DNA of 64,000 nt from Acidobacteriota bacterium. GTDB taxonomy: Bacteria > Acidobacteriota > Vicinamibacteria > Vicinamibacterales > UBA8438. Numbering within the stretch: the stretch's first letter is position 1; each line of letters opens with the position of its first letter. This document shows, piece by piece, positions 1-12,073 of this stretch. The notes below the pieces were generated by a model. The model was not told the DNA's origin, searched no databases, and saw only the letters and a program-made list of their open reading frames with translations. The DNA lies in NCBI GenBank assembly GCA_009838525.1, contig VXRJ01000011.1, forward strand, positions 1 through 64,000, given 5' to 3'. Both the position numbers and the translations under genes were made by a program.

Positions 1-807
1 CCAGTCGTAGACGACCGGATCCTGGTAGAGCATCTGGCTGATGATCGCCTGCACCATGGCGAGGCGCGGAAAGTCGGAGCTGAGGGTCCATGACGAGCGG
101 ATGCGGGTGTAGAGCTCGAACTGGTCGTTCCAGGCCGACGGGTCGTGCCCGACGTACCGGCTGAGGCTCCGGCGCGTGCTCTGGTAGTCGGTCTGGAGGA
201 TCCGCTCGTAGATCTGATCGACCGGCGTCATCGGGCGATTGAACCGGTTGTCGGAGAGGCCGATGGGGTTGTAGATGACCAGCCGCTCGACCGAATCGGG
301 ATACTGCGTGGTGAACCGCGTGGCGAGCATGCCGCCCATCGAATGGCCGACGGCCATGACCTTGTCGATCCCCTCGTGCTCGAGGATGAGCTGCGTGTTG
401 CGCGCCTGCGTGTTGAAGTTGTAGGGCGCGATCGGCTTCGACGACTTGCCGTACCCGATCTGGTCCGGAACGAGGACGCGGAATCCGGCGTCGGTCAGCC
501 CGTCGATGATGTCGCCGAAATAGAAGCCGCCGAAGTTGTTGCCGTGCATCAGCAGGACCACGTGGCCGTTGGCCGCGCTCGTCGGCGCGATGTCCATGTA
601 GGAGATGCGCACGTCCTGGCTGTAGACACTGATGTTGAGATACTTGCTCGGGGCCGGATACGGGCATTCGTCGCAGGTGATGCTGCCCGGCTTGATGTCC
701 GTCGGCGTCGGTACCGGCGGCAGAATGTCGCGACCCTGGGCGCCGGCGGCGGCCGCCACACCGAGAATCACGAGCACCGAGGCGAGTGTTCTGACATAAA
801 CGGGCAT
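1..807 (-). CDS. secreted alpha/beta hydrolase, 3' end outside the window
   Basis: The frame is open from an ATG at 807 to the window edge, giving 269 residues with the C-terminus missing. A signal peptide covers about residues 1-23 and ends near AAAGAQ, so the product is probably exported. The core is an alpha/beta hydrolase: an oxyanion-hole region LLMHGNNFGG, the strand FRVLVPDQIGYGKSS and the nucleophile elbow GHSMGG (Ser). The catalytic His should lie beyond the edge. The pair CDEC in the N-terminal part could form a disulfide. An SD-like GGAGAAGGA lies just upstream of the start. It is divergent from the PadR gene. Substrate is unknown; epoxide-hydrolase or haloperoxidase-like esterases are the nearest look-alikes. 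Confidence 0.9.
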   Translation of the reverse strand, partial: MPVYVRTLASVLVILGVAAAAGAQGRDILPPVPTPTDIKPGSITCDECPYPAPSKYLNISVYSQDVRISYMDIAPTSAANGHVVLLMHGNNFGGFYFGDIIDGLTDAGFRVLVPDQIGYGKSSKPIAPYNFNTQARNTQLILEHEGIDKVMAVGHSMGGMLATRFTTQYPDSVERLVIYNPIGLSDNRFNRPMTPVDQIYERILQTDYQSTRRSLSRYVGHDPSAWNDQFELYTRIRSSWTLSSDFPRLAMVQAIISQMLYQDPVVYDW

Positions 808-1070
808 GAGTCCTTCTCCGTGGTCTAGAGGTGTCCGTAAATGTACCATCCGGGGGCACGGGGACGGAAGTCCGCGGAAGACAGATCCCGCGAAGCAGCC
901 GCGCGCGACTCGTTCACGCTCCATAGCGTGCCGGGAATCGGCACCCTCGGGAGCTACGACGAGCGTTGCGCGACCATCAACCCTGCCATGGCCTCGCTGC
1001 CGCACGTTCGGGGTGGACTCCGGGCGTCGGGCGTGAAGCCCGGTTTGCTGGCCGAGAGTGGGATTGTTCT
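808..1070. other. divergent intergenic region without a recognised gene
   Basis: About 260 bases separate the hydrolase start from the PadR operator region. Small overlapping frames exist on the plus strand, but they have no family resemblance and no clear ribosome binding site. The stretch is GC-rich except at its right end, where it turns AT-rich and probably carries the PadR promoter. I see no RNA gene or repeat in it. Confidence 0.5.
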
Positions 1071-1105
1071 GTAGACAAGTTACTCAATACTTAGTAGACT
1101 GTCTA
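1071..1105 (+). promoter_or_regulatory. candidate PadR operator/promoter
   Basis: Just upstream of the PadR start is a perfect palindrome TAGAC-T-GTCTA at 1095-1105, with a further TAGAC half site at 1072-1076. The stretch is much richer in A and T than its surroundings. PadR regulators commonly bind dyads in their own promoter, so autoregulation of the padR-permease operon is the natural reading. The role is inferred, not shown. Confidence 0.5.
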
Positions 1106-1111
1106 TACAAC

Positions 1112-1453
1112 ATGGAAACCGCGGACACCCGCGTCGACTTGCTCTACGGGACGCTGGACCTGCTCATCCTGCGGACGCTCGTTTACGGCCCGTCCCACGG
1201 CCACGCGATCGCCAAGCACATCCTGCGGGTGTCGGAAGACTCCCTCCGCGTGGAAACCGGCTCGCTGTACCCCGCCTTGCACCGGCTGGAGGGACGAGGC
1301 TGGATCGCGGCCGAATGGAAGAAGTCCGACAAGGGTAAGCGGGCTAGGTACTACCGGCTCACTCCTTCCGGACGGCGACAGCTCCTGGTAGAGCAGTCAC
1401 GGTGGGAGCAGTTGACCGTCGCCATGGCGCGCGTGCTGCGCCCCGCGGACTAG
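1112..1453 (+). CDS. PadR family transcriptional regulator
   Basis: The 113-residue protein starts at METADTRVDLLYGTLDLLIL, the usual PadR opening. It has the winged-helix signature: GPSHGHAIAKHI, then ETGSLYPALHRLEGRGWI and the wing KGKRARYYRLTPSGRR. A longer start at 1058 is possible, but it would run through the palindromic operator, so 1112 is preferred. The stop codon TAG overlaps the ribosome binding site TAGGAG of the following permease gene, so the two form an operon. PadR-ADOP pairs are typical of Acidobacteria. The regulator probably represses its own operon; the ligand is unknown. Confidence 0.93.
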   Translation: METADTRVDLLYGTLDLLILRTLVYGPSHGHAIAKHILRVSEDSLRVETGSLYPALHRLEGRGWIAAEWKKSDKGKRARYYRLTPSGRRQLLVEQSRWEQLTVAMARVLRPAD

Positions 1454-1464
1454 GAGTACACACC

Positions 1465-4101
1465 ATGCTGCGGCACCTGTACGTCCGCCTGCGCTCTCTC
1501 TGCACCTGGCGCCGGCAAGAAGCGGAACTCGATGAGGAGATTCGGTTCCATCTCGCCGAGGAAACAGAGGAACGGATTGCGGGGGGAATGTCTCCCGCGG
1601 AGGCGCATGCGGCCGCGCGACGCGACTTCGGCAACGCGACGCTGATTCGCGAGCTGGCCCGTGAGACCTGGGGTTGGGGCCCCGCCGAGCGGCTGCTTCA
1701 GGACGTTCGCGGCGGGATCAGGATGATGCGCCGCAGCCCCACCTTTACCACCGTCGCGGTCGGCACACTGGCGCTGGCGATCGGCGTCAACGTCGTGATG
1801 TTCAGCGTGTTGAACACCGTGCTGTTCCGGCCGTTGCCGTTCCACGCTCCGGACCAGTTGGCCATGCTGTGGACGGAGACCCCGAGCCAAGCGCTTCGAG
1901 AGAACCGATCGGCTTTCTGGAACATCGAGGAGTGGCGGCGGCAGAGTCGGAGCTTCAGCGACATCGCGGTCTTCGACAGCGTGGCGTTGACGCTGACGCA
2001 CGCCGGCGAGACGCAGCGGATTCAAGGGGCCAGGGTGTCGCCGAACCTGTTTCCATTGCTCGGCGTGCAGCCGCTGCACGGACGGAGCTTCTCGGCCGAC
2101 GAGACGGCGGAACGGCGACGTCTCGTCGTCATCAGTCATCGCTTGTGGCAGGCCCGATTCGGTGGTTCGCTCGACACGCTCGGCGTGTCCGTCGAGCTCG
2201 ACGGACACGCGTCCCGCGTCATCGGCGTGCTGCCTGAACGGTTCGGGTTCGCGAGCCTCGATGCCGATATCTTCGAGCCCCACACGCTGTTTCCGGACTG
2301 GGAGGACCGCCGTTTGGTCCGCGGGCAAGATACGTGGTTCGTGATCGGACGGCTGCGACCGAACGTCACCATCGAAGGAGCCCAGTCGGAGATGAGCACG
2401 ATTGCCCGCCGCCTCGACGCCGAGCTGCCGGTCGGCGAGAGGAACCGCGGCATTCGTGTCGTTCCCCTGAGTCGTCACGTAGTCGGTTCGCGGTCTCGCT
2501 TGGCGCTGTGGATGCCGATGGCCGCCGCGGCATTCGTTCTGCTGATCGCCGCCGCCAACGTCGCCAACCTCTGGCTGGCTCGGAGTCTCGGCCGTGCTCG
2601 GGACGTGGCGCTGCGGGCCGCGCTCGGCGCGAGCCCGGCCCGAATCGTCCGGCAGCACCTGACCGAGAGCACGACGCTGGCCGTAGGGGCTGGTGCGTTT
2701 GGCATGTTGCTGGCGGTGGTCGGCCTCGATCTCGTTCGTTCGCTGGGCGCGGTCGAGCTGGCGCGCCTCGACGAGGTTCACCTGGATACGAGCGTGTTCG
2801 GCTGGTCGCTGGTTCTGTCCCTGCTGACGGGGACGGTGGTCGGGACAGTACCCGCGCTTCTCTGGCGCGGGTACCTGCGACCCCTTGGCGACACCAGCTT
2901 GCGAGGTGCCGTCGGCGGAACGGCCGCCCGAAACATCCGGCGATCGCTCCTGGTGGCCGAGGTGACGTTGGCGATCATGTTGCTGGTGGGTGCCGGTCTC
3001 CTGATTCGGAGCTGGTGGCAGGTCGAGGGCGTCGACCCGGGCTTCCGACCAGAACGGGTCCTGGCGATGCAGATCGGCGCACCTGCGCTGATGACCCCCA
3101 CACAGCGACCGAGCTTCTATTACCGCGTGCTCCAGCGAATCGAATCGACGCCCGGCGTAGAGCGGGCTGGCTTCATCAGTGACGCCTTCATCAGCAGCAG
3201 CCCCGAACGGACCCTCACCACCGAACGCGACGGCGAGGCCGTGTCCACGCGTCTGCAGTTCCGCAGCGACGAGATCAGCGCCGGGTTGTTCCCGGCGCTC
3301 GGCACGCGTCTGCTCGACGGACGCTTGTTTACGCCTCGTGACGGCCCCGAGTCGCCGCGGGTCGTGATTGTCAACGACACCATGGCGCGCCAGCTATGGC
3401 CGGGCGATGATGCGGTTGGGAGGCGCTTCAAATGGGGGCCGGCGGATTCCGTCGGCCCTTGGCTGACCGTCGTCGGCGTGGTCGACGACATGCGCCGCCA
3501 AGGGCTGGAGACGGAGCCGATACCGCAGATCTTCCAGCCGGTCGCCCAGAACCCGTCCGGGGCCGGATTCCTCATCATTCGGGCCGATCACGATGATCCG
3601 CTGGAGATGGCGGCGGCGGTGCAGGCGGCCGCGCGGCAAGTCGATCCTCTTGCGCCGCTGTACGGCGTGTCAACCTTGGAATCTCGGCTACGCGCGTCCT
3701 ACGCGCCACGCCGCCTCCAGACATCCATCGTGGTGGGGTTCGCCGCGGCCGCGCTACTGATGGCGGCAATCGGGATCTACGGACTGATTCAGTATGCCGT
3801 CTCTACCCGCACGAAGGAGATCGCCATCCGCATGGCCGTCGGCGCCGATACCGGCAACATCTTCCGAATGGTCGTCGGCGAGGGGTTGGTGCTGAGCGGC
3901 GCGGGGGTCGCGCTCGGACTCCTCGGCGGCGTCTGGGTGGGTCATGCCGTTCGTCGCCTTCTGTTCGGGGTCGGCACCTTGGATCCGTTGACCTTCGTCA
4001 CCGGGTCGGCAGTGCTGATCACCGTGGCCCTGGCCGCGTGCACTGTTCCCGCTCGCCGCGCGATGCGGGTCGAGCCTCTCGTCGCCCTGCGGGCAGAGTG
4101 A
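1465..4101 (+). CDS. ADOP-type ABC transporter permease (MacB/FtsX family)
   Basis: The 878-residue membrane protein starts at MLRHLYVRLRSL, with GGAG 8-11 bases upstream that overlaps the PadR stop. The N-terminal prefix ELDEEIRFHLAEETEERIA is the cytoplasmic domain typical of acidobacterial duplicated orphan permeases. Then come a transmembrane segment near residue 100, a MacB-like periplasmic core, an FtsX block around 370-470, a second helix near 500 (SLLVAEVTLAIMLLVGAGLL), a second periplasmic core, and a C-terminal FtsX block (TKEIAIRMAVGADTGNIFRM...PARRAMRVEPLVALRAE). There is no ATPase gene nearby, as usual for this orphan family. Likely roles are mechanotransmission or efflux across the envelope, controlled by the PadR protein. 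Confidence 0.92.
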   Translation: MLRHLYVRLRSLCTWRRQEAELDEEIRFHLAEETEERIAGGMSPAEAHAAARRDFGNATLIRELARETWGWGPAERLLQDVRGGIRMMRRSPTFTTVAVGTLALAIGVNVVMFSVLNTVLFRPLPFHAPDQLAMLWTETPSQALRENRSAFWNIEEWRRQSRSFSDIAVFDSVALTLTHAGETQRIQGARVSPNLFPLLGVQPLHGRSFSADETAERRRLVVISHRLWQARFGGSLDTLGVSVELDGHASRVIGVLPERFGFASLDADIFEPHTLFPDWEDRRLVRGQDTWFVIGRLRPNVTIEGAQSEMSTIARRLDAELPVGERNRGIRVVPLSRHVVGSRSRLALWMPMAAAAFVLLIAAANVANLWLARSLGRARDVALRAALGASPARIVRQHLTESTTLAVGAGAFGMLLAVVGLDLVRSLGAVELARLDEVHLDTSVFGWSLVLSLLTGTVVGTVPALLWRGYLRPLGDTSLRGAVGGTAARNIRRSLLVAEVTLAIMLLVGAGLLIRSWWQVEGVDPGFRPERVLAMQIGAPALMTPTQRPSFYYRVLQRIESTPGVERAGFISDAFISSSPERTLTTERDGEAVSTRLQFRSDEISAGLFPALGTRLLDGRLFTPRDGPESPRVVIVNDTMARQLWPGDDAVGRRFKWGPADSVGPWLTVVGVVDDMRRQGLETEPIPQIFQPVAQNPSGAGFLIIRADHDDPLEMAAAVQAAARQVDPLAPLYGVSTLESRLRASYAPRRLQTSIVVGFAAAALLMAAIGIYGLIQYAVSTRTKEIAIRMAVGADTGNIFRMVVGEGLVLSGAGVALGLLGGVWVGHAVRRLLFGVGTLDPLTFVTGSAVLITVALAACTVPARRAMRVEPLVALRAE

Positions 4102-4297
4102 TTCCCAGGAGACCGGTGCCCGTGTTACAGGCCTGGAGTTCGGCCACACGGACGCGCGGATCCTGGTCGAATTACGGCCGCACGTCCGCCACTACGCCAA
4201 CGACCTCCCACGTCTCGTCTGTGCGCTCACCGTCACCGGACGCGAATCCCGGGAATCCGGTCGCCGTCACGTCGACCCCTCTCCAGCCTCCGAGGCG

Positions 4298-4603
4298 CTA
4301 CGCGGCGGTGTGCCGCGGGCGCACGCACTCGGCGATCCTTGGGCCAGCCGCGATCTCGGCCCGGCGCAAGTCGTAGGTCTGCTGCAAGTTCAGCCAGACC
4401 TGCGGCGTCGTCCCGAAGTAGCGTGCCAATCGGAGGGCCGTGTCGGCTGTCACGCCGCGCTGTCCGTTCAGGATCGCGGTGATCCGGTTCACTGGCACGT
4501 CGAGTGCCTTCGATAGGGCATTCGCCGACAGGTCGAGCGTCTGAAGTTCTTCACGCAGAATCTCGCCAGGATGCACGGGCCGCATGCCGTTCTTCGGAGA
4601 CAT
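4298..4603 (-). CDS. higA: HigA family antitoxin (XRE helix-turn-helix)
   Basis: The 101-residue protein begins MSPKNGMRPVHPGEILREEL, the diagnostic HigA opening. A Cro/C1 helix-turn-helix follows (ALSKALDVPVNRITAILNGQ), and then the family tail RLARYFGTTPQVWLNLQQTY. I chose the ATG at 4603, which has GGAGAAGG upstream, over a TTG 12 bases earlier. It lies 15 bases downstream of higB, the toxin-first order of HigBA. The antitoxin should neutralise HigB and repress the shared promoter. The module sits at the left side of a mobile-element remnant. Confidence 0.93.
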   Translation of the reverse strand: MSPKNGMRPVHPGEILREELQTLDLSANALSKALDVPVNRITAILNGQRGVTADTALRLARYFGTTPQVWLNLQQTYDLRRAEIAAGPRIAECVRPRHTAA

Positions 4604-4618
4604 CGCCTTCTCCAATCG

Positions 4619-4897
4619 CTAGTGGTAGTCCACAATCTCGACGTCGCATGGCCCGTCCAGTTCCCAGCGGAAACAGATGCGCCATTGCAGGTTGATCCGA
4701 ATACTGTGTTGCCCCGCCCGATCGCCTCGGAGCGCCTCCAACCGATTGCTGGGCAGTCCCCCCAAGTCCTTAAGTGCCTCCGCGCTGTCCAGCAGTGTGA
4801 GTCGGCGCGTAGCCTGATCCACGAACCCCTCGAACCGACGAACGCGGTGACCCTCGAAGAACCGCTGCGTGTCCCGGTCCCTGAAGCTTCGAATCAC
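4619..4897 (-). CDS. higB: HigB family toxin (RelE/ParE-like mRNA interferase)
   Basis: The 92-residue protein has the HigB signatures RFFEGHRVRRFEGF near the N-terminus, DLGGLPSNRLEALRGDRAGQ in the middle and LQWRICFRW...VEIVDYH at the end. HigB toxins cleave translated mRNA at the ribosome. The start is GTG with AGGGGAG just upstream. It is the first gene of the operon with higA. Length and motifs are complete, so the toxin is likely functional. The family is widely carried on mobile DNA, which fits the integrase remnants to the right. Confidence 0.93.
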   Translation of the reverse strand: MIRSFRDRDTQRFFEGHRVRRFEGFVDQATRRLTLLDSAEALKDLGGLPSNRLEALRGDRAGQHSIRINLQWRICFRWELDGPCDVEIVDYH

Positions 4898-4925
4898 GAA
4901 CTCCCCTAACGATATACATAAAGGC
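4898..4925 (-). promoter_or_regulatory. probable higBA promoter region
   Basis: An AT-rich segment immediately upstream of higB reads on the minus strand as TTTATGTATATCG followed by the SD AGGGGAG. The TATGTATAT core could be a -10 element and HigA operator, since HigA proteins bind AT-rich dyads at their own promoter. No clear -35 is visible. Confidence 0.35.
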
Positions 4926-5013
4926 TAGAGGATTCCTCTGTGTGGTCGTACAGCCCAGAGGCGTCGACGAGTCTGGCATGATGGCCTCCGACGCTAGCAA
5001 CTGTTAGTGGGAA

Positions 5014-5337
5014 TCATCCGTCGGACTCCGGTACGCGCCGGGCAATGACGCGCAAACGGGGATCACACCGTTGTGGCTCAGGCGCGAAGGCGCCTGACGC
5101 CTGCGGATAGCGCAGGAGGTCAAGAGCCGTCAGCGCGGCCGACGAGATCTTCATCGTCCCGGTGTCGGTCTTGCGATCCACAGCCCCTGCCGTCACCGCC
5201 CCCAGGTTCTTGCGGAAGTAGAAGACCATCAGGTTGCGGCCCGTGCGGATCTTCGGCGGGCGCTTAGCCGACATGACCTGGAACTCCATGACGGCCTGAT
5301 GCGTTGCACCATCAAGCCAGGGATCACTCAGGTAGCG
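5014..5337 (-). pseudogene. internal fragment of an AbiEi-type antitoxin
   Basis: The frame is open from 5337, just after an in-frame TAG, and reads RYLSDPWLDGATHQAVMEF, then KRPPKIRTGR, VFYFRKNL, RKTDTGTMKISS and ALTALDLLRYPQASG. This is the central and C-terminal signature of type IV AbiEi antitoxins, which are normally about 200-280 residues. The N-terminal helix-turn-helix half is missing, and after QASG the sequence leaves the family and stops. No AbiEii nucleotidyltransferase toxin gene follows. It is therefore a two-sided deletion remnant. An ATG at 5289 could still give a 91-residue peptide, but a function is unlikely. Recognition is from family memory of these motifs. Confidence 0.75.
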
Positions 5338-5594
5338 CTAACCGTATAGTCTATGTAAATAATTCACAATAAAGAACTTGCTACTAGTGGACCGGCCATC
5401 CTTCCCTCGTTGTTTCCCTCATTCTATCCGGGAACCTACGGGACGATTGAAGCCGCCCGCGGACCCGCGGACCGTACCGCTCTCGTCGTCGAAGCGATAC
5501 ACTCCGCCACTCCGCGACGGATCTACGGCACGACTCACCATCGTTTGCCGCGGCCGCGCGGGCCGGTCCTCGCACTCGAAGCGGGCAGCCCCTT
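5338..5594. other. non-coding gap with an AT-rich patch
   Basis: The first 50 bases (5340-5390) are strongly AT-rich compared with the window and abut the truncated end of the AbiEi fragment, which suggests a junction of foreign DNA. The rest is GC-rich. It holds only short frames without family resemblance. No hairpin or RNA gene was recognised. Confidence 0.45.
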
Positions 5595-6131
5595 CTATCC
5601 CAGGAGCAGTCCGAGAGTGGGCAGCACCATTACGATCATGAAGACGCCTACCAAACTCCATGTCAGCCATCGCTTCGGGTAGCGCACCCAGTAGAACAGC
5701 AGCCCCGACAACGCCAGCGCTTGGCCCGCCGTCTCGATGTGACCGACGCCAAGCTGAACGCTCAGCGGAAGCGTCGTGTAGATCAACCCTTCTATCGAGC
5801 CGGGCGCAGGTCCGAACGTCGAGAACGTGCCGATCACGACCAGCACGACCCACATCGTCAACCAGCCGTACTGGCGGCCGAAGTATTGATCGCGCAGTAG
5901 GTAGAACACAGCGCCGAACAGGAGCCCTCGAACCGGTTGAAACAAAGGCCCCGCCATGACCATCGGATCGTCCGGGGACCTCATGAGGCCATCGAGCGGC
6001 GGCTCGGCAAGAGCAGTTCCGTAGTCAAAGAGGGTGAAGGCCAGCACACCCGCGAAGAAATAAGTCACGGTGTGCACGACGGCAGCTCTCGCGAGGATCC
6101 CCGGCAGGGTCAATCGATGTGGGTCTGTCAT
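5595..6131 (-). CDS. multi-pass membrane protein of unknown function
   Basis: The 178-residue protein starts at MTDPHRLTLPGILARAAVVH; three residues more are possible from 6140. About five hydrophobic segments are visible: VVHTVTYFFAGVLAFTLFDY, the region around LFQPVRGLLFGAVFYLL, LTMWVVLVVIGTF, the stretch QALALSGLLFYW, and the C-terminal WSLVGVFMIVMVLPTLGLLL. The loop EPPLDGLMRSPDDPMVM lies between the first two. I do not recognise a named family. It lies inside the mobile island between the AbiEi fragment and the integrase scraps, so it may be passenger DNA. Confidence 0.7.
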   Translation of the reverse strand: MTDPHRLTLPGILARAAVVHTVTYFFAGVLAFTLFDYGTALAEPPLDGLMRSPDDPMVMAGPLFQPVRGLLFGAVFYLLRDQYFGRQYGWLTMWVVLVVIGTFSTFGPAPGSIEGLIYTTLPLSVQLGVGHIETAGQALALSGLLFYWVRYPKRWLTWSLVGVFMIVMVLPTLGLLLG

Positions 6132-6264
6132 TCTTGGCACCGCCCCTCAGCCGGCCGTCCGAGGCGCCCGGCGACGCGAGGAATCGTCAGAATCGTGAAG
6201 TGTAGCGGATCGGACCGGCGCAGATGGCTGCATGGGCCAGTCCGGAGATTGTTGAGCGTGGGCT

Positions 6265-6330
6265 GGTTGCCGCGAGATAGGCCGCCCAGTTGTCCATCGG
6301 CCACCGCCGCCGCTCGAACAGGTCCGACTG
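6265..6330 (-). pseudogene. C-terminal scrap of a second tyrosine integrase
   Basis: Read on the minus strand from 6330, the frame gives SDLFERRRWPMDNWAAYLA. This matches the end of the intact integrase 130 bases away (SDLFDRRRRLMNDWAAYL), and the nucleotides are clearly alignable as well. Everything upstream, including the catalytic tyrosine region, is gone. The frame then runs on without homology to a stop near 6208. It is the remnant of an earlier related integration event or of a partial duplication. Confidence 0.75.
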
Positions 6331-6437
6331 TCAATGGCAAGTGAAAACTGCACACTCCAGGAAGGGGGAGAGCCCGTGACCGTCCTCCGGCCAGTCTGCC
6401 GTCGCCGCCACGTGGCGGGCAGTGACCGCCGCACCGA

Positions 6438-7532
6438 TCAGCGCTGCGTCGGGCCGTCCGCGTGTCCGTCGAGATACGCCGCCCAGTCGTTCATGAGCCG
6501 CCGGCGGCGGTCGAACAGGTCTGACCGGGCGTAGGCCGCCTCGACCTTGTTCTGGACCACGTGGGCCAAAGCCGCCTCGATGACCTCGCGCGGGTGGTCC
6601 GTCTCCTCGGCCGCCCAGTCTCGGAACGACGACCGAAAGCCGTGCGGCACGGCGGCGATCCCGTGGTGCTGGAGCATCTTCGGCAGCGTCGATGTGGATA
6701 TCGACTTCCCGCTCCGCATCGGGAACACGAGCCGGTTGCCGTAGCCGAGCGTCCGCGCCGCCTCGAGGATCTCCAGTGCCCGGCCGCAGAGCGGGACCCG
6801 GTGCCCGCGCTTCGCCTTCATCCGCGTGGCCGGGACCGTCCACACCGCACCGGCCGTGTCGATCTCGTCCCACGTCGCCAGCCGGACCTCGCCGGACCGC
6901 GCCGCGGTCAAAACGAGGAACTCGAACGCCAGCCTGACGGCCGGCTGCGCCGAGCCGTTGCGCACCGTCTCAATCGCCGCGGCCACGTCCTTGTGCGGCA
7001 GCGCCTGCCGGTGCGTCACGATGTCGTTCTGCGGCCCCAGCACCGGCAGCACGCGGTCGCAGGGATTGTCGTTCCGCATGTCGAGCGCGATCGCCCACTC
7101 GATCACCGACCGGATGCGCTGGCGCACCGCCCTGGCCGTCTCCGCCTTGACGTGCCAGATCGGCGTGAGGATCTCCAGCACGTCGGCCGTGTCGACCTCG
7201 GAGACGGGCCGGCGGCCGATCCGCGGGAAGGCGTAGCGTTCCATGCTGGTCCACCAGTTCTGCGCGTGCCACCGGCCGCGCCACCCGCCGCGCTTCTGCT
7301 CCAACACGCGCTCGGCGGCCTCGGCGAAGGTCGGGATGCCGTCAGCGCGGCGTTTCTCGGAGAGCGGGTCGCCTCCGGAGCGGGCCAACTTGCGGTTGGC
7401 CAGCGCCAGCTCGCGCGCCTCGGCCAGAGAGACGAGTCCCGCGGCGCCGAGTCCGAGTTCGCGGCGGCGTCCTCGGATGACGATGCGCTGGACCCAGCTT
7501 CGGGTTCCGGTGGGCTGGACGAACAGGTACAA
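6438..7532 (-). CDS. tyrosine recombinase (P4-type integrase), start codon lost or atypical
   Basis: The 364-residue reading from a TTG at 7532 covers most of a DUF4102/P4-type integrase. It has the arm-binding domain (LFVQPTGTRSWVQR), a SAM-like core-binding domain, and a catalytic domain with Arg in LTAARSGEVRL, Lys in TRMKAKRGH, HxxR in PHGFRSSFRDWA and the nucleophile Tyr in EAAYARSDL. Conserved coding continues upstream of 7532 as GRHPEKALSAAFVR up to 7628, but that stretch has no ATG, GTG or TTG. It begins directly after the TAG of the PQQ dehydrogenase gene, in the same frame. The true start was probably lost at a junction. All catalytic residues remain, so activity from the TTG cannot be excluded. 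Confidence 0.88.
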   Translation of the reverse strand: MYLFVQPTGTRSWVQRIVIRGRRRELGLGAAGLVSLAEARELALANRKLARSGGDPLSEKRRADGIPTFAEAAERVLEQKRGGWRGRWHAQNWWTSMERYAFPRIGRRPVSEVDTADVLEILTPIWHVKAETARAVRQRIRSVIEWAIALDMRNDNPCDRVLPVLGPQNDIVTHRQALPHKDVAAAIETVRNGSAQPAVRLAFEFLVLTAARSGEVRLATWDEIDTAGAVWTVPATRMKAKRGHRVPLCGRALEILEAARTLGYGNRLVFPMRSGKSISTSTLPKMLQHHGIAAVPHGFRSSFRDWAAEETDHPREVIEAALAHVVQNKVEAAYARSDLFDRRRRLMNDWAAYLDGHADGPTQR

Positions 7533-7628
7533 ACCGTTGCCGTCCGCGTGCCGTCCCGGCGGTGCGGACCGGACGAAGGCGGCCGAGAGCGCCTTTTCGG
7601 GATGGCGTCCCCGGCGCTTGGTTGTCCC

Positions 7629-9497
7629 CTACGGTAGCGCGAACACGAACAGCGTGTTCCCCGAGCTGGGTCGCAATTCCGGCGTCAGGGCAGTGAAGTG
7701 CGACGACGTGCCGCCGCTGCCGGTGCTGACCGCTACGTACTGGCGTCCGTCGACGGCGAAGGTAATGGGGAAACCGGTGACCGACGAGCCGAGGTTGATT
7801 TCCCAGAGCACCTCGCCGGTCTCGTGGTGAAAGGCCCGGAACCGGCCGTTGACGTCGCCGCCGAAGACGAGTCCGCCGCCGGTCGCGACGAGCGACATGG
7901 TCGCCGCCCGCTGCTCGTGGAGCCAGACGGTCTCCCCCGTCTCCGCGGAAATCGCCCGGACGGTCCCCGCGTTGTCGGTACCGGGCGCCAACTGGTGGCG
8001 GTAGGCGATGGCATAGAGCTCTGAACGGCTCTCCGTGCGCGCTGCGGGAGTGTCATCGGGAAAGACCTGCGTCGCCATCATGCGCGCGCAGGTGTTGCGC
8101 AACGGCATGTACATGGTGTTTGTGAGGGGACTGTAGGCGCCCGCCTCCCAGTCCTTGCCGCCGTTCCAGGTGGGACAGGCGAAGACCTCCTGCCCCAGGG
8201 TCGTGAAGACCAGTTCCGCGTTCTCGGATACGTCGCCGGTGGCGCCGTCGATGTCCCCGACGACGTTCTGGGTAACCGTCGGGGTTGCCCACAGGAACTC
8301 CCCGGTCGCCCGGTCGAGGGTGTACACGATGCCGGTCTTGCCGGGAATGCCGGTGAGGACGCGACGCGTCTCCCCCGCCCGCAGCCGCGGGTTGATCCAC
8401 TGCACGGCGCCCGGATCCGGCGCCACCGCGGTGTCGACGAGAATCCGCTCGAACGGGTGATCGAGATCCCAGTGATCGTTGAGGTGCTGGTAGTACCAGA
8501 CGATCTCACCGGTGTCGCCGTCGAGGGCCAGCGTGGAATTGTGGTAGAGGTGCTGGTTCTCGGTCCCGCCGAGCATGAACTTCGGGGCGGGTGAGGTGAC
8601 GGACGTGCCGACGTAGACGAGGTTCAGCTCGGGGTCGTAGCTCGGCACCATCCAGGCGCCGACGTGGACCCGTTCCTCGAACGGCACGCTGCCCCAGCTC
8701 TCGTCGCCCGGCTCTCCGGGCCCGGGGATCAGGCGGCGCCGCCACAGCTCCTCTCCCGTCACCGCGTCGTGGGCGACCACGACGCACGCGTCCGGGCCGC
8801 CGCGTGGGGAGCAACTGCGTCCCGAGACGACCTTGCCGTTGGCGATGATCGGTCCCGCGCCCTGCGTGGCCGGATTCACCCGGTAGTCCAGGACCTGCGT
8901 CTCCCACACCATCTCGCCGGTCACCGCGTCGAGCGCGTGGATGTGGTCGTCGACGGTCGTGTCGATGATCAGCCGGCCGTGAATGGCGATGTTGCGGTTG
9001 TTCCCGGCGAGCGCGCCGAGCAGGTACTCGCCCACGTCATCCGGAACCGTGCGGCGATGTTCCCAGATGAGATCCCCGGTGACCGCGTCGATCGCCTGGA
9101 TGACGTCGTTCGGGTTCGGCATGTAGAGCACGCCGTTGTAGGCGAGCGGGGTGCCCGACTGGAAACCCTCGGTCAGCCCCCGCGACCAGACCATGCGCAG
9201 ATCGCCCACGTTGTCGATGTTGATCTCGTCCAGCGGGCTGTAACCCCAACTGTCGAGCGTACGCCGCCAAGTCAGCCAGTCGCCGTCGGCCGGCTGCTGC
9301 AGCATGGCGTCGGTGACGGGCGGGAAGTCGTCGCCGGACTGCGCCGTGACAACCGCCGCAACGGACACGACCGCCAGCATCAGCGCCAGCGTCAGGACGG
9401 CGGCCGCGCCCGGCAGCCCGTGGTGAGGCCCCGCGTAGCGCCCAGAGCGGCGAGGCGTCCGCCTGACAAGGCGCGACAGGGGAAGCAGGGAATGCAT
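7629..9497 (-). CDS. PQQ-dependent dehydrogenase, quinoprotein type
   Basis: The 622-residue protein has an N-terminal signal or membrane anchor (about residues 28-52, AAAVLTLALMLAVVSVAAVV) and an eight-bladed propeller. Seven tryptophan-docking motifs are visible: AIDAVTGDLIW, ALDAVTGEMVW, AHDAVTGEELW, ALDGDTGEIVW, TLDRATGEFLW, AISAETGETVW and AFHHETGEVLW. It would oxidise an alcohol or sugar in the periplasm with PQQ. There is no CxxCH, so it is not a quinohemoprotein and must pass electrons to a separate acceptor. No PQQ biosynthesis gene is in the window. It follows the transketolase-like gene by 14 bases, probably in one operon. Its stop codon is the junction with the integrase frame. 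Confidence 0.9.
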   Translation of the reverse strand: MHSLLPLSRLVRRTPRRSGRYAGPHHGLPGAAAVLTLALMLAVVSVAAVVTAQSGDDFPPVTDAMLQQPADGDWLTWRRTLDSWGYSPLDEINIDNVGDLRMVWSRGLTEGFQSGTPLAYNGVLYMPNPNDVIQAIDAVTGDLIWEHRRTVPDDVGEYLLGALAGNNRNIAIHGRLIIDTTVDDHIHALDAVTGEMVWETQVLDYRVNPATQGAGPIIANGKVVSGRSCSPRGGPDACVVVAHDAVTGEELWRRRLIPGPGEPGDESWGSVPFEERVHVGAWMVPSYDPELNLVYVGTSVTSPAPKFMLGGTENQHLYHNSTLALDGDTGEIVWYYQHLNDHWDLDHPFERILVDTAVAPDPGAVQWINPRLRAGETRRVLTGIPGKTGIVYTLDRATGEFLWATPTVTQNVVGDIDGATGDVSENAELVFTTLGQEVFACPTWNGGKDWEAGAYSPLTNTMYMPLRNTCARMMATQVFPDDTPAARTESRSELYAIAYRHQLAPGTDNAGTVRAISAETGETVWLHEQRAATMSLVATGGGLVFGGDVNGRFRAFHHETGEVLWEINLGSSVTGFPITFAVDGRQYVAVSTGSGGTSSHFTALTPELRPSSGNTLFVFALP

Positions 9498-9511
9498 GGT
9501 TCGACTCCTCG

Positions 9512-12073
9512 TCAGAGCGCCTTCAGCGCGCCCAGTTGCCGCTCCAGCCGTGACTCGCGGTCCCGGGCGAAGCGGGCGATGCCCTGGTAGATCGACTCCT
9601 GATCGAGGTGCGCCTCGGCGATGACGTCGGGTTCGGTGCCGCCGCTTCGCCAGCGGTCATCAAAATCGGCGTAGAGCGAGTACTCCTCGGTGAGGGCGCC
9701 CAGATTCGGGATCGGCGGCACGCGCTTGGTCATGGTGCTGACGACCATGCAGTCGTAGCGCGACGCGTCGGGCAGCAGCTTCTCCCGGTAGGCCGCCGGC
9801 TGGGCCGCGAACAGCTCGGTGCTGATGACGGACACGATGCGCACGTTCAGGCCCGACTCCTCGAGCCGCGGGACCACGCTGACGAGGTTCTTCGTCGAGC
9901 TCGAGCCCTGCACGAAGACGGTTCCCATCGGCGGGGCGTCCGGCGCGAACTCCCGGATCAGGTAGAGGCCCTTCGCCGCGGCCTTCACGTCGGTGTCGGC
10001 AAACGTCGCGCGATCCGACACGAGGAAGTCCGGCCGCGCCACGTGGATGACGATGATGCCGACCTCCTTGTGGGCCAGCGCCTGCTGAACCGCCGCGAAG
10101 TAGCCGGGAGCGACGTCGTTGTAGTCCCAGAAGTAGAGGTTGATGACCTGGCCGCGCGGCAGCAGGGTCCAGACCTGCGGCGCGAAGATGCCGAAGTGGG
10201 TGCGCGCGTCGGCCGCCGTCTCTGGGCCGGAATGGCCGGCCAGCACGTGCAGGACGCCGAGCTCGAAGGGGCTGTCCTGATTCATCTGCGAGAAGACCCG
10301 GGCCGGCGTGTACATCAGCGGCGTGAACGCGCCGTAGGTGCCCGAGATTCCCCAGACCCCGGCGTAGCCGTCCGGGTCGGTCGACGCGTTCTGGCTGACC
10401 AGCCCGATTACCGTCGACGCGTTGCCCGCCTCCTGGATGGCTGCCTTCAGCCGCGTGCCGAACGGATTGTCCACCGGGTCGTAGTGGCCGAGCAGGTTGG
10501 CCTTCTCGACGTTGATCGAGCTGGACAGGTCCGCCGCCATCGTCATGAAGCGCCCGTCCGTCACGTAGTTCAGCCACGCCCCGATCTCGCTGACCGCCCG
10601 CCGTGGCCCCTTCTTCTCGCCCGGCGGCAGGAACAGCGAAATGCGACGCTCCACCTCCGTGTCCGTGTGCGGGTTGCGCACCACCACGTCACTGGGTTCG
10701 ACCGGCAGGTTCTCGACCCGCAGGCGCTCGTCGAGGAACGGGTTGGCGGCCCGGTCGATGCCCAGCGTCAGCGACCGGTCGACGGTTCCCGCGACGTCGA
10801 GCACGCGCTCCGCGATCCACGCGCGCAGTCCGGGCCGGCGCTCCATCACCGACATCACCGTGTCGACGTTCGTCTTGAACTGGATTAGGCGATCCGCCTC
10901 GGTCGCCGGGACTCCGTCGCGAATACCCTCGAAACGAACGCCGTAAGCCTGCTCGAACGACTCCGCCAGCCCGACGAAATAGTCGCTGTTCATCTTGAAG
11001 GCGTACGGGTGGGAGGGATACCCGACGATCTGGTCGCGGCCGCCGATCCGCCCATCGCTCGCGCCTGGCCACCAGCCCTTGACCGTCGGGCCGATCAGGA
11101 TCATGGGCCGGCGATCGTCGTCCGGCCACTCCTCCATCGCCTTGAACGCGGCGACTACCTGATCGAAGTCATTCCCGTTCTCGATCGTGAAGACGTTCCA
11201 GCCCCACGACACCCACTGCCGGGCGAGGTCGTAGTCCGTGTAGCCCGGCTTCACCACGCCGCCGACAAGGCTGTCGTCGATGCCCGCATTGTTCTGAGAC
11301 ACGAGCACGCGCAGCCGCTTGCCGACCTGCTGGGCCAGGGCGATGTTCTTGAGCTCCTGCGCATGTCCCTCGGTCAGCGCGAACTCCCCTTCCAGCGCGA
11401 CTACCTTCAGACCCGGCGGCGCCCCGACGTAGTCCCAGAACAGCGCCTTGCCGGCGGCCGTCGCAATGCCGATGCCGGACGGACCGCCGTTGACGTCGTT
11501 GGTCACGTCGATGGATTCGGCATGTCCCGACAGGGCGCGGATCCCGCGGCCCTTCGCATCGGCGAAGAAAGGGTGATCGGCCAGACCGTTCTCCTCCAGC
11601 AGCGTGGCCAGGGCGCCGGCTCCGCGGCGAAAACCCAGCGAGTCGATCGGCAACATCGCGGCCTGGGGATCGCAGGCGAAACGCGCATCGCCGGTCTCTT
11701 CGTGCTGTCGCCGCATCGCCTCGTACAGGACCATCCACAGCGCGTAGCACGTCGGTATGCAGTGACCGCCCGCGAGCATGAACTTGTCGGCGTAGGCGAA
11801 CTTCGGCTCGCGGAGGTCGTAGCGGAGGCCTCCCAGCGCGGGGCCGGCCAGATGACAGGCCACGTTGTAAGGCGTGTAGGCCAGCGGTCCGCCGAAGTGG
11901 CCGGTCTGGGCGTAGTTGCCCATCAGGCACAGGCCCATCGACGTCATGAATGCGACGTCGTGGAACCGATCCCGGTCGTAGTCCGGCAACTCGACGGCGT
12001 GACTCTCGAGCCGGTCCGCCGCCGTGACCGTATGAAGCGTGACAGCCTGCGAAACGGGTGTGCTTGTGCTCAT
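9512..12073 (-). CDS. transketolase-like thiamine diphosphate enzyme
   Basis: From the ATG at 12073 the protein is 853 residues; an upstream ATG at 12124 would add 17. It has the transketolase order: an N-terminal TPP domain (YADKFMLAGGHCIPTCYALW, then ALEGEFALTEGHAQELKNIA and SQNNAGID), a pyrimidine domain (MTMAADLSSSINVEKANLLG, PARVFSQM, HSGPETAADARTHFG) and a C-terminal domain (VFVQGSSSTKNLVSVVPRLE). The TPP motif GDG is replaced by EGE, as in some E1-like members. It is longer than classic TktA (about 660) and may act on other ketose phosphates or ketoacids. The PQQ dehydrogenase gene follows closely. Confidence 0.85.
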   Translation of the reverse strand: MSTSTPVSQAVTLHTVTAADRLESHAVELPDYDRDRFHDVAFMTSMGLCLMGNYAQTGHFGGPLAYTPYNVACHLAGPALGGLRYDLREPKFAYADKFMLAGGHCIPTCYALWMVLYEAMRRQHEETGDARFACDPQAAMLPIDSLGFRRGAGALATLLEENGLADHPFFADAKGRGIRALSGHAESIDVTNDVNGGPSGIGIATAAGKALFWDYVGAPPGLKVVALEGEFALTEGHAQELKNIALAQQVGKRLRVLVSQNNAGIDDSLVGGVVKPGYTDYDLARQWVSWGWNVFTIENGNDFDQVVAAFKAMEEWPDDDRRPMILIGPTVKGWWPGASDGRIGGRDQIVGYPSHPYAFKMNSDYFVGLAESFEQAYGVRFEGIRDGVPATEADRLIQFKTNVDTVMSVMERRPGLRAWIAERVLDVAGTVDRSLTLGIDRAANPFLDERLRVENLPVEPSDVVVRNPHTDTEVERRISLFLPPGEKKGPRRAVSEIGAWLNYVTDGRFMTMAADLSSSINVEKANLLGHYDPVDNPFGTRLKAAIQEAGNASTVIGLVSQNASTDPDGYAGVWGISGTYGAFTPLMYTPARVFSQMNQDSPFELGVLHVLAGHSGPETAADARTHFGIFAPQVWTLLPRGQVINLYFWDYNDVAPGYFAAVQQALAHKEVGIIVIHVARPDFLVSDRATFADTDVKAAAKGLYLIREFAPDAPPMGTVFVQGSSSTKNLVSVVPRLEESGLNVRIVSVISTELFAAQPAAYREKLLPDASRYDCMVVSTMTKRVPPIPNLGALTEEYSLYADFDDRWRSGGTEPDVIAEAHLDQESIYQGIARFARDRESRLERQLGALKAL

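Follow-up and report, generated by a model that had tools for sequence, protein, structure and literature searches.

A 5'-truncated P4-type integrase gene behind a PQQ dehydrogenase stop codon, a probable attachment site

Introduction

How does an integrase reading frame come to begin directly at the stop codon of a PQQ-dependent dehydrogenase gene, with no start codon of its own? The question arises in the window analyzed here, a stretch of 64,000 nucleotides (G000:C11:1-64000) that carries both the dehydrogenase ORF and the integrase frame on its minus strand. A sequence-only reading of this DNA had offered two answers: the 3' end of the dehydrogenase gene could be the attachment site of a P4-type element that uses a protein gene, or the junction could be a deletion fusion. 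Our analysis indicates that the window probably contains the left junction of a P4-type element right behind the dehydrogenase stop, and that the 5' part of the integrase gene has been lost there.

Results

The features around the junction are listed below.

7629..9497, minus strand: complete PQQ-dependent dehydrogenase gene, its 3' end reading FVFALP and then TAG (Pfam PQQ; closest homologues, without integrase, in six genomes)
7613..7631, minus strand: fusion junction, TAG then GGG ACA ACC AAG CGC, aligning with integrase codons from about 12-14 of an intact paralogue
6438..7628, minus strand: predicted 5'-truncated tyrosine recombinase (Arm-DNA-bind_3, Phage_int_M, Phage_integrase), 396 open codons, with no start before TTG 7532
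7530..7532, minus strand: TTG, the earliest in-frame canonical start; a start here would drop about 19 residues of the arm-binding domain
6360..6437, minus strand: stretch behind the integrase stop, common to the dehydrogenase-linked remnant G000:C38, with identity ending at CTTCC, where the element may have its right end
6273..6328, minus strand: C-terminal fragment of a second integrase, 82% identical to the first over 56 nt; probably the remnant of another element

The dehydrogenase TAG occupies 7631..7629, and the integrase frame continues from it in phase and free of stops from 7628 to 6438. As the earlier reading had stated, there is no ATG, GTG, or TTG between this TAG and the integrase body. 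The first is TTG 7532, which falls inside the arm-binding domain; by eye, in-frame CTG, ATT, ATC, and ATA are also absent ahead of it. The conserved N-terminal integrase sequence GRHPEKALSAAFVR does reach upstream as claimed, with Arm-DNA-bind_3 recognized from frame residue 14 and DNA homology with the intact paralogue L113 extending upstream to base 7623. A domain search places PF13356, PF22022, and PF00589 all above their curated cut-offs, such that arm-binding, central, and catalytic tyrosine-recombinase domains are present in the frame, with catalytic function being predicted only. The exact phase between the frame and the dehydrogenase stop could be a one-in-three coincidence. The junction itself is not a chance event, because DNA homology to the window dehydrogenase's closest homologue in each of six genomes (84-85% protein identity) stops at 7629-7639 and because the same type of junction recurs elsewhere. 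Mis-assembly also appears unlikely, since the two sides of the junction have only a few bases in common and the pattern recurs in separate draft genomes.

The genome of the window, G000, contains two further full integrase copies, L002/L113 (93% identical) and L003/L114 (72%), which reveal what the window copy lacks. In both L113 and L114, an ATG lies about 13 codons ahead of the conserved region, an AT-rich box (TATAAT in L113) precedes it by a few bases, and about 135 bp of upstream DNA are in common. L113 is also located behind a PQQ dehydrogenase, about 140 bp away, as is L114, with another gene fragment intervening. Absent from the window copy are about 140 bp of upstream DNA with the TATAAT-like box, the ATG, and the first 12-13 codons. 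A promoter scan gave no promoter-like match at the window junction; the same scan is blank at the intact L113 too. The remaining integrase body has a dN/dS of 0.16 relative to L113 (values for L073 in this comparison are not meaningful because that copy is frameshifted). In raw counts, 17 non-synonymous and 39 synonymous codon changes fall on the window branch, 8 and 38 on the L113 branch, and 15 are unassigned to either. These data suggest that the window body has been under purifying selection, and thus that the loss is young or that some protein is still made.

To place the junction among its relatives, integrase loci from the same bacterial family were scanned with integrase and dehydrogenase profiles. 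The search with the L113 integrase gave loci whose contigs have titles such as Acidobacteria, Vicinamibacterales, and Vicinamibacteria MAGs, together with some titled Gammaproteobacteria, Pseudomonadales, and Gemmatimonadetes. Of 120 unique integrase-like stretches, 83 were counted, after exclusion of 34 that lack the N-terminal part and 3 that have <400 bp of sequence upstream. A PQQ gene lies just ahead of 28 of these, and 29 are within 260 bp of a PQQ match, L075 being inside a PQQ gene; this overall figure, like the clade C figure of the same count, leans upward because some loci had been chosen for apparent dehydrogenase linkage. Among stretches at least 80% identical to L113, 13 of 18 have a PQQ stop just ahead on the same strand, and the five that do not count against the association. 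The association is found for only 4 of the 27 other stretches best matched by L113 and for none of the 25 best matched by L114. A second clade (clade C), whose listed members share 42-45% identity with the window protein, has a PQQ stop just ahead at 12 of 13 places. This last figure comes from a DNA search without linkage-based choice, in which 19 places were found and 13 scanned; within it, the PQQ match of L263 is weak and in pieces, and the L266 contig carries the site only, not the integrase. In many genomes the searches scored part of the candidates, for example 23 of 52 in G000 in the clade C DNA search.

The spacing is also characteristic. The profile distance between integrase and PQQ matches is 191-194 in seven close relatives (exceptions, L174 at 219 and L073 at 229), 160-183 in the second clade, and 6-28 in five fusions. 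G000 yields 155 first-look PQQ dehydrogenase candidates; scoring of 32 of these left 14 that passed E 1e-150. By our own arithmetic, with at most 155 genes in 4.29 Mb, a random insertion would land within 250 bp behind a same-strand PQQ gene roughly 0.5% of the time.

Homologous loci without the element are available for comparison. The closest counterparts of the window dehydrogenase in six genomes have no integrase in the flank retrieved; a neighboring transketolase-like gene is kept at three of these loci, and the other three are homologous by similarity only. The window shares nothing downstream of the dehydrogenase with the six loci, two of which were available as stretches of <1.6 kb. 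A dehydrogenase that continues beyond the TAG in such a relative would have spoken against the junction. It does so only trivially in G010, G017, and G023, where the gene ends two codons later, and not in G003, G016, and G018, where it ends at the same codon. Homologues of the dehydrogenase ahead of L113 present a mixed picture when their 150 bp flanks are read by eye: no integrase in, for example, G003, G011, G017, and G023; clade A integrases in G000 and G010; a clade C integrase in G020; and remnants in G018, G022, and at two places in G041. Two loci of one genome, L069 and L070, match at 96% through the integrase and for a further 1.4 kb; L069 sits behind a dehydrogenase, whereas L070 sits beside the 5' part of what we take to be an hsdR-like gene. 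This common element at two different targets indicates that it moves without the dehydrogenase. With a clade-specific, near-constant distance, empty homologous sites, and an element found at an unrelated site as well, the proposal that the dehydrogenase 3' end serves as a putative attachment site is well supported by these sequence comparisons.

On the far side of the element, the dehydrogenase 3' end was not found again as a direct repeat, which the earlier reading had suggested looking for, within reach of the window copy, the contig start being 7.6 kb away. A generic repeat search of window positions 1-9600 returned no far-side repeat. Searches for the dehydrogenase 3'-end motif with at most 3 mismatches (60 loci and window 1-12000) and for a shorter core (15 loci and the window) returned nothing for the window. 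The shorter core did give one exact second copy in L107, ahead of a second integrase fragment. At L162:8459-8629, an orphan PQQ-dehydrogenase 3' fragment of 57 codons follows a fused integrase remnant at a distance of 4.8 kb and may be an old right end; because it is only 79% like the local dehydrogenase, it is not a fresh repeat. When paralogues are compared for a right end, close relatives mostly cease to be homologous near the integrase stop, and their C-terminal tails are not alike.

Other features lie downstream as well. The second-integrase fragment at 6273..6328 finds its best other matches in the L077-L080 group, and a HigB-like toxin and HTH antitoxin pair at window:4298-4897, downstream of the integrase remnants, is possible cargo. 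As a separate observation, full-length integrases that are 85-90% identical still differ strongly in the length and sequence of their last residues, as if the end of the gene had been rebuilt from neighboring DNA.

The fusion recurs. A PQQ stop followed at once by integrase 5' coding region is found at eight dehydrogenase genes in five genomes (G000, G017, G018, G023, and G041): the window, G023:C150, G023:C17, G041:C168, G041:C391, G017:C38, G041:C312, and the second-clade case G018:C267. Not included in this count are a second copy in L107, where a dehydrogenase is lacking, and L165, where about 42 bp of the site precede integrase codons from about 15. The left breakpoints lie within a few bases of the dehydrogenase stop, and the right ones, read by eye in the close clade, at about integrase codons 8-18. 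Of six fusions read by eye, four have the integrase in the frame of the stop, and two have an integrase-frame TTG that overlaps the TGA. Two further dehydrogenase-linked remnants begin near codon 73 (L181) and near codon 360 (L115). Together with L165, they indicate that deletion endpoints vary.

In seven of the eight fusions the integrase is broken or a stub, and only the window copy has an open body. Open bodies are thus found in 15 of 19 intact-start copies versus 1 of 8 fused ones (Fisher p = 0.0025, with statuses assigned partly by eye). The test dropped L103, L173, L192, and L195, which are cut by contig ends, and L075, and L175, L225, and L232 were added by eye; the integrase piece of L225 was likewise read by eye, as the profile did not report it. 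L163 and L164 were counted as broken despite long open frames, because their integrase homology ends early or needs five pieces. Since an intact paralogue has the lost segment and similar fusions are mostly decayed, the suggestion of a deletion fusion behind the missing start holds up, and the missing start is, on these alignments, apparently a recurrent secondary change.

Neighboring integrase groups use other sites. Members of the L114 group are often found within genes that carry an RRHH motif, presumably HNH endonucleases, and this sister clade (L077-L080 and L114) cuts the RRHH-motif gene family at nearly the same codons in five loci. Integrases 65-66% identical (L087, L088, and L278) adjoin the 5' part of PQQ dehydrogenases that read in the opposite direction; in L278 the break falls close to the start of the PQQ gene, which may be a second target within the same gene family. 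At L080 (oriented 4000-6100), L073, L067, and L114, an integrase is followed by 1.3-1.9 kb of differing cargo and then by a C-terminal integrase fragment, an arrangement suggestive of stacked elements in which the older integrases have been deprived of their 5' parts. Comparison of L080 with L078 shows about 180 bp of the integrase 3' end duplicated around an insert. A viral origin of the integrase was also considered and set aside: 13 stretches in viral contigs matched the search pattern, and none coded for a relative.

Discussion

Our studies allow us to propose how the window junction arose. The integrase would link its element to the very end of a PQQ-dehydrogenase gene in a manner that leaves the dehydrogenase with a stop. 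In the normal layout, about 140 bp separate this stop from the integrase ATG, with a TATAAT-like box just before the ATG. In the window copy, a later deletion would then have removed the promoter region, the ATG, and the first 12-13 codons. This deletion was perhaps aided by the short repeat AACCAA, which is present in intact sites and at integrase codons 13-14 and is only six bases long, or was perhaps made by the integrase itself. The latter route, through an attachment-like sequence within the integrase gene, is weakened because the match to the attachment sequence, scored over the whole gene in seven genes, is not best at codons 12-14. The most likely state of the window integrase is that it was recently inactivated at a real attachment site. 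The gene is probably silent, or else readthrough or a start at TTG 7532 would yield only a poor product, and the element would be locked in place except where a related integrase moves it in trans.

Several other readings share part of this evidence. The integrase could still be made under dehydrogenase control, by termination-reinitiation or readthrough at the dehydrogenase stop, a reading compatible with the deletion. The conserved body, open for 396 codons, and the phase and TTG-TGA overlaps of the fusions are consistent with it. However, the junction has neither a start codon nor a promoter-like match (in a scan that is blank at intact L113 too), and the fused copies other than the window's are broken; we consider continued expression unlikely, if the least so of the alternatives. 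It is rather unlikely that 5'-truncated copies are moved in trans, with the fused form keeping the left core and full-length relatives carrying it, non-autonomously, to new dehydrogenases. Such movement would explain why TAGGGGA(C/G)AACCA(A/G)GCGCC is common to the window and G041:C168 behind different dehydrogenases, and why the second fused copy in L107, 2.2 kb on, has only CGCTGCCCTGAC ahead of it and no dehydrogenase. Yet no common right end was seen among the fused copies read, and those other than the window's are stubs or decayed. That the integrase and dehydrogenase form one co-mobile unit, with the dehydrogenase as cargo, is the least credible of the readings. The two genes adjoin in many genomes, and both are 89% alike between L108 and L109. 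But integrases 85-90% alike stand behind dehydrogenases only 39-76% similar to the window's, and homologous dehydrogenases are found without an integrase; the pair L069/L070, which has the integrase in common and not the dehydrogenase, largely refutes the idea.

A further possibility is that the crossover site lies within the integrase gene, such that each integration parts the promoter and first codons from the body. Archaeal suicidal integrases carry their site inside the gene (PMC8371274), and the location of left breakpoints at the dehydrogenase stop and of right ones, in the close-clade fusions, at about integrase codons 8-18 would suit such a mechanism. In intact relatives, however, the junction lies upstream of the ATG, and the breakpoints of the fusions are several codons apart. 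Moreover, an orphan 5' piece was not found among the G000 candidates (24 of 24 scored) or among the scored candidates of G017, G018, G023, and G041 (40 each of 41, 66, 46, and 67, respectively). An archaeal-type suicidal integrase is therefore disfavored, and we regard it as very unlikely. A broader proposal, which we think quite unlikely, is that multi-copy protein genes serve this integrase family as scattered landing sites, and that the integrase gene is repeatedly cut off from its 5' end by its own product, at one and the same position, during integration or later. If true, the result would be locked-in elements movable only by related integrases, a bacterial counterpart of the archaeal suicidal integrases. 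A recent inactivation by deletion at a functional attachment site remains our preferred reading.

P4-type (phage-P4-like) integrases direct genomic islands to the 3' ends of tRNA genes. The window integrase resembles them in its Arm-DNA-bind_3, Phage_int_M, and Phage_integrase domains, in adjoining the 3' end of a host gene, and in reading away from that gene. It differs in that its apparent target is the 3' ends of a protein-gene family with many copies per genome and in that the window copy is without its 5' end. Distant relatives of the integrase (L285-L288 and L117; about 47-51%) lie shortly behind tRNA-like sequences when read by eye, the classical kind of site; relatives of about 50% with this placement are on contigs titled Pseudomonadales. 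Most of the sites known for integrases are single genes for tRNAs or housekeeping functions, and trmE and dusA, which belong to the protein-gene sites, are single-copy. SGI1 integrates at the 3' end of trmE and related islands at dusA (PMC8409611). The window element would resemble these islands in integrating at a protein gene, at its 3' end in the case of trmE, and would differ in that many PQQ dehydrogenases serve as its site. A literature search of partial coverage found no report of PQQ-dehydrogenase genes as an integrase attachment site.

Self-disrupting integrases are described as exclusively archaeal in PMC8371274, in which the Phage_integr_3 (PF16795) domain marks the suicidal SSV-type family. 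The window resembles that family, as described there, in having an integrase gene without its 5' end at a junction with host DNA. It differs in that PF16795 is absent among the families listed for its integrase at E 0.001, in that intact relatives do not split the gene, and in that no separate N-terminal piece appears among the scored candidates of five draft genomes, all candidates being scored only in G000. The locus is not established as a bacterial suicidal case because that separated 5' piece was not found. What distinguishes the present system is that two diverged clades of one integrase family appear to target PQQ-dehydrogenase 3' ends, of which there are many copies per genome. Because the PQQ family is multi-copy, a single integrase could find many places to insert, at which small elements can accumulate and decay. 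The recurrent fusions near the same few codons offer a natural series on how such integrases become inactive.
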